Notes under the pieces: model-generated
What the model saw: only the letters and a program-made list of their open reading frames with translations
The model's database searches: none
Told to the model about the DNA's origin: nothing
Assembly: GCA_902789835.1 (NCBI GenBank)
Contig: CADAPN010000144.1
Location: 1 to 5,432 of the forward strand
From: Oscillospiraceae bacterium
GTDB lineage: Bacteria > Bacillota_A > Clostridia > Oscillospirales > Oscillospiraceae
Length of the DNA stretch: 5,432 nt
Direction: 5' to 3'
In this document: positions 4,351-5,432 of the stretch, piece by piece
Layout of the letters: each line of letters begins with the position of its first letter
Numbering within the stretch: position 1 is the first letter of the stretch
Made by a program: the position numbers and the translations under genes

Positions 4351-4372
4351 GAAACTGCGAAGCAGTTTCTTG
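4348..4372 (+). repeat. Perfect hairpin starting at the rpmJ stop codon
   Basis: GAAACTGC (4351-4358) and GCAGTTTC (4362-4369) are exact inverted repeats around a GAA triloop. The stem gains one A-T pair and two G-U pairs outward, which brings in the rpmJ TGA and gives 11 pairs. It has the shape of a terminator stem, but the next bases (4370-4380) are A/G-rich rather than a U-tract. Rho-independent termination is therefore unlikely. It could protect the 3' end of an upstream processed mRNA or be the edge of a repeat element. Confidence 0.8.
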
Positions 4373-4405: not shown

Positions 4406-4422
4406 AAAAGACGCCCTGAAAA

Positions 4423-4457
4423 CCAAATCGAAGCCCAGTGGAACGGGTTCGATTTGG
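4423..4457 (+). repeat. Long hairpin, 13 bp with one bulged G
   Basis: CCAAATCGAA (4423-4432) and TTCGATTTGG (4448-4457) are perfect inverted repeats. Past a single bulged G (4433), CCC (4434-4436) pairs with GGG (4445-4447), leaving an 8-nt loop. This is the strongest secondary structure in the window, and it looks the same from either strand, as expected for a palindromic repeat element. The GGTTCGATT within it resembles a tRNA T-arm, but no tRNA can be folded around it. Confidence 0.85.
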
Positions 4458-4481
4458 AGAGGACGAGCAGCGCAGCGAGCG

Positions 4482-4559
4482 AGCTTTCCCGACGCTTCGA
4501 GGAAGCGAGACGATGCGAAGCTTGTGAGGACGTCGGCTCCCCTCCGGCGGGAATAAGCT
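4482..4559 (+). repeat. Long-range stem enclosing an inner hairpin
   Basis: AGCTTTCCCG (4482-4491) pairs with CGGGA (4548-4552) and AAGCT (4555-4559), giving ten pairs with a 2-nt AT bulge. Inside it, CGCTTC (4493-4498) and GAAGCG (4502-4507) form a perfect 6-bp hairpin with a GAG triloop. The segment GCTTCG (4494-4499) can instead pair with CGAAGC (4516-4521), so two mutually exclusive folds are possible. The stem closes just before the A-run and the rpsM ribosome binding site. Confidence 0.6.
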
Positions 4560-4590
4560 AAAAAAACAAATCTGAAAGGAAGAAACACCT

Positions 4591-4959
4591 ATGGCACGTA
4601 TAGCCGGCGTTGACCTGCCGAAAGACAAGAGAATCGAAATCGGTCTCACCTATGTCTACGGAATCGGCAGAACCAGCGCACTGAAAATCCTGGAAGCGAC
4701 CGGGATCAACCCCGACACCCGCGTCAAAGATCTGACCGACGAAGAAGAGTCCAAGCTGCGTGAGTGCATCGACCACGGTTACATCGTGGAAGGCGACCTC
4801 CGCCGTCAGACCGCGCTTGACATCAAGCGTCTGACCGAGATCGGCTGCTATCGCGGACTGCGCCATCGCCGCGGTCTTCCCGTGCGCGGCCAGAGAAGCA
4901 AGACCAACGCCCGTACCCGCAAGGGTCCGAAACGCACCATCGCGAACAAGAAAAAGTAA
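4591..4959 (+). CDS. rpsM: Small ribosomal subunit protein S13
   Basis: S13 sits in the head of the 30S subunit. It contacts the P-site tRNA through its C-terminal tail and forms intersubunit bridges with the 50S subunit. The 122-residue product has the expected start [20 protein letters not shown], the helix-two-turn-helix region with [10 protein letters not shown] (21-30), and the S13 signature region [20 protein letters not shown] (85-104), followed by TNARTRKGP. It ends in a lysine-rich tail. The length is normal. The ribosome binding site AAGGA at 4576-4580 is 10 nt from the ATG. The gene is the first of the alpha-operon group (rpsM-rpsK-rpsD) and follows the 240-nt structured spacer, so it may have its own level of expression relative to rpmJ. 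rpsK begins 16 nt downstream. Confidence 0.98.
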
Positions 4960-4960
4960 A

Positions 4961-4966
4961 GGAGGG
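4961..4966 (+). promoter_or_regulatory. Ribosome binding site of rpsK
   Basis: GGAGGG lies 9 nt before the ATG at 4976. An earlier ATG at 4969 is only 2 nt from it and opens a six-codon frame, so the site supports the 4976 start. Confidence 0.75.
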
Positions 4967-4975
4967 ATATGAAAC

Positions 4976-5334
4976 ATGGCAGCTGCTAACAATAAGAAGA
5001 AAGTTCGTACGCGCCGCAGAGAGCGCAAGAATATTGAAAAGGGCCAGGTTCATATCAGCTCTTCTTTCAATAACACCATGGTCACCTGCACCGACACGGC
5101 CGGAAACGCCATTTCCTGGGCTTCCTCGCCGCGCAGACCGCGGCGGAGACGGCCGCAAAGGCTGCAATGGAGCATGGTCTGAAGACGGTTGAAGTCTTCG
5201 TCAAGGGACCCGGCTCCGGCCGTGAAGCCGCCATCCGCGCCCTGCAGACGGCAGGACTTGAAGTGACGATGATCAAGGATGTTACGCCCATCCCCCACAA
5301 CGGATGCCGTCCTCCGAAACGTCGCCGCGTATAA
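4976..5334 (+). pseudogene. rpsK: Small ribosomal subunit protein S11, broken by an internal ~43-nt deletion and frameshift
   Basis: S11 lies on the 30S platform and lines the mRNA exit region with S7. Codons 1-50 (4976-5125) read as normal S11, from [20 protein letters not shown] to [10 protein letters not shown]. The frame then goes out of register and stops at TGA 5180-5182 after 68 codons. The rest of S11 continues in another frame from GCC at 5128 to TAA at 5332-5334 (68 residues: [53 protein letters not shown]). The family has about 15 residues here (AGxLGFRGSRKSTPF), and only two nucleotides remain. The missing length is 43 nt, and restoring it gives 402 nt or 133 residues, the normal size. 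Both halves are otherwise well conserved, so the event is recent or artefactual. S11 is essential, so assembly error is the leading explanation. Confidence 0.93.
5128..5144 (+). repeat. GC-rich hairpin at the rpsK deletion junction
   Basis: GCCGCG (5128-5133) and CGCGGC (5139-5144) are perfect inverted repeats around CAGAC. The 5' arm begins exactly where the normal S11 frame resumes. A stem of six G-C pairs at the breakpoint is a plausible cause of polymerase slippage, either in the cell or during amplification and sequencing. It may also be chance, since the Ala-rich S11 segment is naturally GC-rich. Confidence 0.6.
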
Positions 5335-5352
5335 GAGAAGGAGGGAAATCTT

Positions 5353-5432
5353 ATGGCAAAGAATACCCAGCCGATTGCCAAGCGCTGCAAGGCACTCGGA
5401 ATCAGCCCCGCAGTGATGGGCTACAATAAGAA
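5353..5432 (+). CDS. rpsD: Small ribosomal subunit protein S4, N-terminal 26 residues (partial)
   Basis: S4 binds 16S rRNA early in 30S assembly and in several bacteria represses its own operon. The window ends after 26 codons plus two bases. They encode MAKNTQPIAKRCKALGISPA then VMGYNK. This matches the N-terminus I remember for S4 in Ruminococcaceae and Lachnospiraceae-type Clostridia. It has a single cysteine (C12), so the zinc-binding N-terminal cysteine cluster of B. subtilis-like S4 is absent. AAGGAGGG at 5338-5345 lies 7 nt before the ATG, and rpsK ends 18 nt upstream. Placement beside rpsK, rather than as a solitary gene as in B. subtilis, makes feedback by S4 on this operon possible. 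The call depends on the short N-terminus plus context. Confidence 0.9.
   Translation, partial: MAKNTQPIAKRCKALGISPAVMGYNK

Follow-up and report, generated by a model that had tools for sequence, protein, structure and literature searches.

A 43-nt gap in the ribosomal protein gene rpsK of an Oscillospiraceae-like contig: most likely a data artefact

INTRODUCTION

Has a bacterium of the Oscillospiraceae lost a core segment of ribosomal protein uS11, or was the segment lost only in the data? The question is raised by a stretch of 5,432 nt (the window), which is probably a complete metagenome contig of an Oscillospiraceae-like bacterium and carries the spc operon from rpsE to rpsD. In both E. 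coli and B. subtilis, S11 is an essential protein. An earlier note on this DNA had described an rpsK gene that lacks ~43 nt and is out of frame, and had left three readings: an assembly or sequencing error, a second intact copy elsewhere, or a minority variant. Here, we compare the locus with its relatives and weigh these readings.

RESULTS

The rpsK lesion

On the + strand, the window encodes, in this order, rpsE, rpmD, rplO, secY, adk, map, infA, rpmJ, rpsM, rpsK and the start of rpsD, the names being assigned by reading the translations. The nine complete genes upstream of rpsK run uninterrupted from start to stop. A near-mode search for a phage record containing the DNA of positions 4590 to 5432 found none. 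The features around the lesion are compiled in Table 1.

Table 1. Features of the rpsK region in the window
Feature	Position	Strand	Basis or remark
rpsM (S13), intact	4591..4959	+	10 synonymous, 0 nonsynonymous differences from G001
rpsK (uS11), 5' part, codons 1-50, in frame	4976..5125	+	ORF list; ends ...AISWAS
Junction, 43 nt of the relatives missing	5125..5126	+	Alignment to L111 (G001) and L112 (G016)
Two orphan nt (TC, 5126-5127) and rpsK 3' part, last 68 codons and stop, in another frame	5126..5334	+	
Perfect 7-bp hairpin with 5-nt loop	5127-5133/5139-5145		DNA fold and hairpin scan; one base past the junction
Premature TGA after the frame shift, 68-aa product	5180..5182	+	ORF list
rpsD (S4) start, truncated by the window end	5353..5432	+	First 30 letters the same as in the 199-codon rpsD of L111

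The 43 nt are absent from the given letters. Both retained parts match S11 (PF00411), and the gene order rpmJ-rpsM-rpsK-rpsD is kept. Indeed, the 50 codons before and the 68 codons after the junction align without indel to G001, the nearest genome compared, and both end portions of the domain, N- and C-terminal, are thus retained; from 5128 to 5334, the codons GCC GCG CAG and those following read AAQTAAE...KRRRV, followed by the stop. In contrast to uS11, the window lacks 15 residues (less two nt), no single open frame spans the whole domain because of the frame shift after codon 50, and no whole S11 is encoded. The missing residues, 51 to 65, form the conserved block that reads AGGLGFRGSKKSTPF in G001. 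The earlier note had correctly seen that this block is lost, but it had given R at a position where G001 has K. Its estimate of the loss proved exact: the alignment to G001 gives 43 nt, with two nt between the 50 and the 68 codons.

Comparison with relatives

G001 (also present in our set as locus L111) has 50% of the sampled 31-letter words in common with the window. The best-matching named loci are metagenome-assembled genomes of Oscillospiraceae, Ruminococcaceae and Clostridiales, many of them from ruminant guts (the best 80 of 570 confirmed places, picked by rpsM similarity). A MAFFT alignment of the window with G001 comprises 5275 paired bases with 256 mismatches (95.15% identity), and the window's loss of 43 nt after 5125 is the only indel in a coding region; three further gaps lie between rpmJ and rpsM, one of which the aligner set at the stop codon of rpmJ. 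The rpsK gene of G001 is intact and encodes 133 aa. The 43 nt are likewise present at the junction in the more distant G016 (L112; 81.43% identity), and among 115 intact relatives (counted after dropping the duplicate loci L111 and L112; 104 parsed, 11 unparsed), exactly 43 nt lie between the break points in all 104 parsed ones, a count that is not fully independent, as some loci of the two genome collections look like one genome (e.g., L007 and L042). The alignment to close relatives, which had been proposed as a check, hence bears out the loss. Furthermore, S11 aligns over its full length in one frame in 117 of 122 loci, and 141 distinct sequences from solved structures match intact S11; in the one alignment shown, chain K of 7o5b pairs gaplessly with residues 8 to 133 of the G001 protein, and the block is near-identical.

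Compared with G001, the part of rpsK before the junction has 2 synonymous differences and 3 in nonsynonymous codons, whereas in the 69 codons after it, counting the stop, all 6 differences are synonymous. The orphaned half thus shows no decay, which indicates that selection for S11 acted on it until very recently, or still does, and that the lesion is too young for decay to be seen. Programmed frameshifting, already dismissed in the earlier note, was also rejected here, as was recoding: with 43 nt absent, nothing encodes these residues, and the block is present in all 104 parsed relatives. A programmed frameshift gene would carry all its residues in two frames and keep this arrangement in relatives; the window's rpsK does neither.

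The junction and its hairpin

In G001, the two break points have 0 nt in common, and if the same points were used in the 104 parsed relatives, the shared sequence would be 0 nt in 61, 1 nt in 17, 2 nt in 23, 3 nt in 2 and 4 nt in 1. Repeat-mediated slippage was therefore discarded as the leading mechanism. The earlier note had favoured slippage on account of a perfect 6-bp GC hairpin that was said to start exactly at the break point. A perfect hairpin does adjoin the junction, but it has 7 bp, spans 5127 to 5145 and lies one base off; the step from hairpin to slippage is poorly supported, given the lack of shared sequence and the presence of the hairpin in 30 of the 104 intact relatives, where a stem of at least 5 bp occupies the same place (at least 6 bp in 10 of 104). 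No other hairpin in rpsK has a stem of 7 bp or more, and the whole window has five that long, this one included. Counting stems from 6 bp upwards, the window has 16 hairpins, and 2.8% of positions are at most 2 nt from the edge of one, so that the coincidence of hairpin and junction is only suggestive. As a sufficient cause, the hairpin was ruled out, since intact relatives own it without the deletion; it may help a polymerase to skip, but would not by itself cause the loss. DNA folding gave z = −1.5 for the window region and z = −0.9 and −1.1 for the intact G001 region, neither of which is unusual.

Gaps in ribosomal genes of sister assemblies

Among 120 loci (122 less the two duplicates), rpsK is complete in 115; of the other five, three have it truncated by a contig end, one lacks it, and one, L039, has it broken. 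With a lenient coverage cut, the same loci gave 2 flags in rplO, 1 in rpmJ and 14 in rpsD, while rpsE, rpmD, secY, adk, map, infA and rpsM had none. As many as 53 of the 120 loci had no match for the upstream genes, and the lack of rpsM flags is biased, as 80 loci were fetched by this gene. Three cases were inspected, each, like that of the window, in assembled sequence. Locus L039 (titled Oscillospiraceae) has a private 49-nt deletion in rpsK at 6228; L044 (titled Ruminococcaceae) has a private 61-nt deletion in rpsD at 5926, and outside the gap it agrees with the intact L046 at 240 of 241 bases; and L041 (titled Clostridiales) has, in comparison with L036, a private 132-nt deletion in rplO at 2259 that includes the start. 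These gaps resemble the window's in that tens of nt or more are missing that the nearest relative retains, with 0 to 1 nt in common at the junctions as judged by comparison with the nearest relatives, but they differ from it in place and size. That three public assemblies each have a private gap in a ribosomal gene, a different one each time, is better explained by a technical cause than by three independent losses. At the same time, a single broken rpsK in 120 loci indicates that such breaks are rare among binned genomes. The other 13 rpsD flags begin at residues 35 to 39, with 59 to 65% identity, and to judge from the alignments look like N-terminal divergence.

Short S11 forms in protein data

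In a search of ~5.8 billion proteins, the 68-aa junction protein was represented, among the listed matches, by one sequence, the window's own, on one contig of 5432 nt, which is exactly as long as the window; in this search, the junction was thus seen in one assembly only. Intact S11 as the query retrieved at least 8000 scored proteins. Short S11-like proteins were retrieved in 344 cases, and as this set was selected by length (37 to 119 aa), it shows that such forms exist and not how frequent they are. Among the best 120 of the 344, 39, among them the window's own, have an end translated from S11 DNA in frame +1, and in 17 the end is in frame +2 (56 shifted); 22 reach the S11 C-terminus in frame with internal residues missing, 12 keep the frame but stop early, and the remaining 30 have a tail that is non-S11 or too short to tell; a looser sorting of the same 120 gave 54 in frame 1, 20 in frame 2, 34 in frame to the end and 12 unrelated, and the stricter sorting is used here. 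Tails in 6 of the 120 match patterns that we take to be translated adapter sequence. Short S11 forms thus recur in public sequence data.

One of them, P0005 (on a 20,071-nt contig), has the first 39 residues of the window's protein and nearly the same shifted tail. Its residues 37 to 79 align to frame +1 of intact S11 with no length difference, which means that this close relative has the 43-nt block and that its rpsK breaks earlier. Three other proteins (P0009, P0054 and P0103) seemingly lost ~19 nt between two GGGCTTCC-like copies (the WAS and LGF codons); judged from protein letters, they form a possible repeat-mediated class, unlike the window's case. In addition, P0121, P0123, P0124, P0129 and P0151 are S11 database proteins with tandem duplications of ~4 to 17 residues; these may be the same kind of data error in the form of insertions.

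A structured repeat between rpmJ and rpsM

Apart from rpsK, the gap between rpmJ and rpsM contains a structured repeat of ~110 nt (4420 to 4533; RNA fold of 4418 to 4536, −45 kcal/mol, z = −3.1). It is dispersed in relatives: 12 of the 25 genomes searched have matches, for instance G016 with 26 and G001 with 9, counting one that is merely the flank of G001's own rpmJ-rpsM gap. The gap of G001 lacks 156 nt of the window's. Directly 3' of the rpmJ stop codon, a perfect 8-bp hairpin with a 3-nt loop (4351 to 4369) sits in a 71-nt stretch missing from the gap of G001. No Rfam match at the gathering threshold was found in the window, the repeat included.

DISCUSSION

In sum, the rpsK gap is not a novelty, and it is most likely an artefact of the data and not biology. 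Of the three readings left by the earlier note, the evidence favours the artefact, with the reservation that the slippage proposed there is not well supported. The artefact is supported by one private gap in an otherwise intact operon, the undecayed orphan half, the lack of recurrence of the junction in the protein search, the frame-shifted or internally shortened S11 forms among database proteins and the gaps of 49 to 132 nt in sister assemblies. Judging from these comparisons, we consider it probable that a chimeric read or an assembly error produced the 43-nt gap. In our model, rpsK would have lost the 43 nt in the data, with the living lineage unaffected; the source of the junction may have been a chimeric or deleted library molecule, or else a misjoin during assembly in conserved ribosomal sequence common to related strains. 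The ends have no common repeat, and therefore at least one junction-bearing read is likelier than a pure collapse of k-mers. The hairpin adjoining the junction could have promoted a deleted or chimeric molecule. Library preparation is reported, in a study on human DNA, to make chimeric artefact reads at inverted repeats (PMC10908179). A literature search, aimed only in part at such an artefact, found no paper on this exact one.

Some points speak against the artefact. Breaks of this kind are rare in assembled relatives, with one broken rpsK in 120 loci. Error-free reads in a de Bruijn assembler do not yield a repeat-less junction, and therefore a deleted molecule probably existed and could be real. 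It is conceivable, if rather unlikely, that the 43-nt deletion was present in a minority of cells or in the DNA of dead cells, as a (near-)lethal null allele that was sampled by chance and assembled; the repeat-less junction, which needs a molecule bearing it, and the undecayed orphan half, as expected of a very new mutation, are both consistent with this. However, an allele that abolishes an essential gene should hardly be common enough to dominate a contig, and the comparable gaps found in rpsD and rplO elsewhere suggest that all have one technical cause. Likewise, 52 of 55 ribosomal proteins were scored essential in C. difficile, most of them being essential in B. subtilis as well (PMC12548448); S11 or rpsK is not mentioned by name in the main text of that paper. 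On the other hand, in a Tn-seq study of Thermus, more than 40% of the genes for rRNA and ribosomal proteins fell into the intermediate or highly permissive classes for insertions (PMC13140390), which tells against a simple view of ribosomal gene essentiality.

The remaining explanations that keep the deletion in living cells fare worse. An intact second rpsK elsewhere in the same genome would make the window's copy dispensable, and two S11 matches were indeed read from the table for 6 of the 336 S11-bearing genomes in a family survey (400 genomes; among the matches listed, the whole model was covered, without stops). But the other 330 have one match, as has the nearest genome, G001, and a duplicate elsewhere would free the copy in the operon to decay, of which nothing is seen; a second S11 copy is uncommon in the family, and this explanation is very improbable. 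Weak S11 matches were recorded in five genomes (G218, G260, G366, G394 and G423). Least credible of all is a functional broken rpsK whose halves are made separately, giving a ribosome with S11 minus residues 51 to 78. An ATG at 5167 does open the C-terminal 55 codons in the original frame, but the lost block is retained in 104 of 104 parsed relatives, and the listed matches of the protein search include no second contig with the junction.

With a chimeric read or misassembly as the preferred explanation, the gap serves mainly as a warning: public assemblies do contain short gaps that break the frame of universal ribosomal genes, and when seen without reads, these are not to be taken for lost or recoded genes. 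A deletion that was real and fixed would leave the organism with a ribosome lacking a core part of uS11, a very surprising outcome. It is scarcely to be expected that rumen-type Oscillospiraceae really carry repeat-less deletions of 43 to 132 nt in essential ribosomal genes; if they did, the deletions would reflect a measurable load of cells or DNA with broken genes, arising via end joining without homology.
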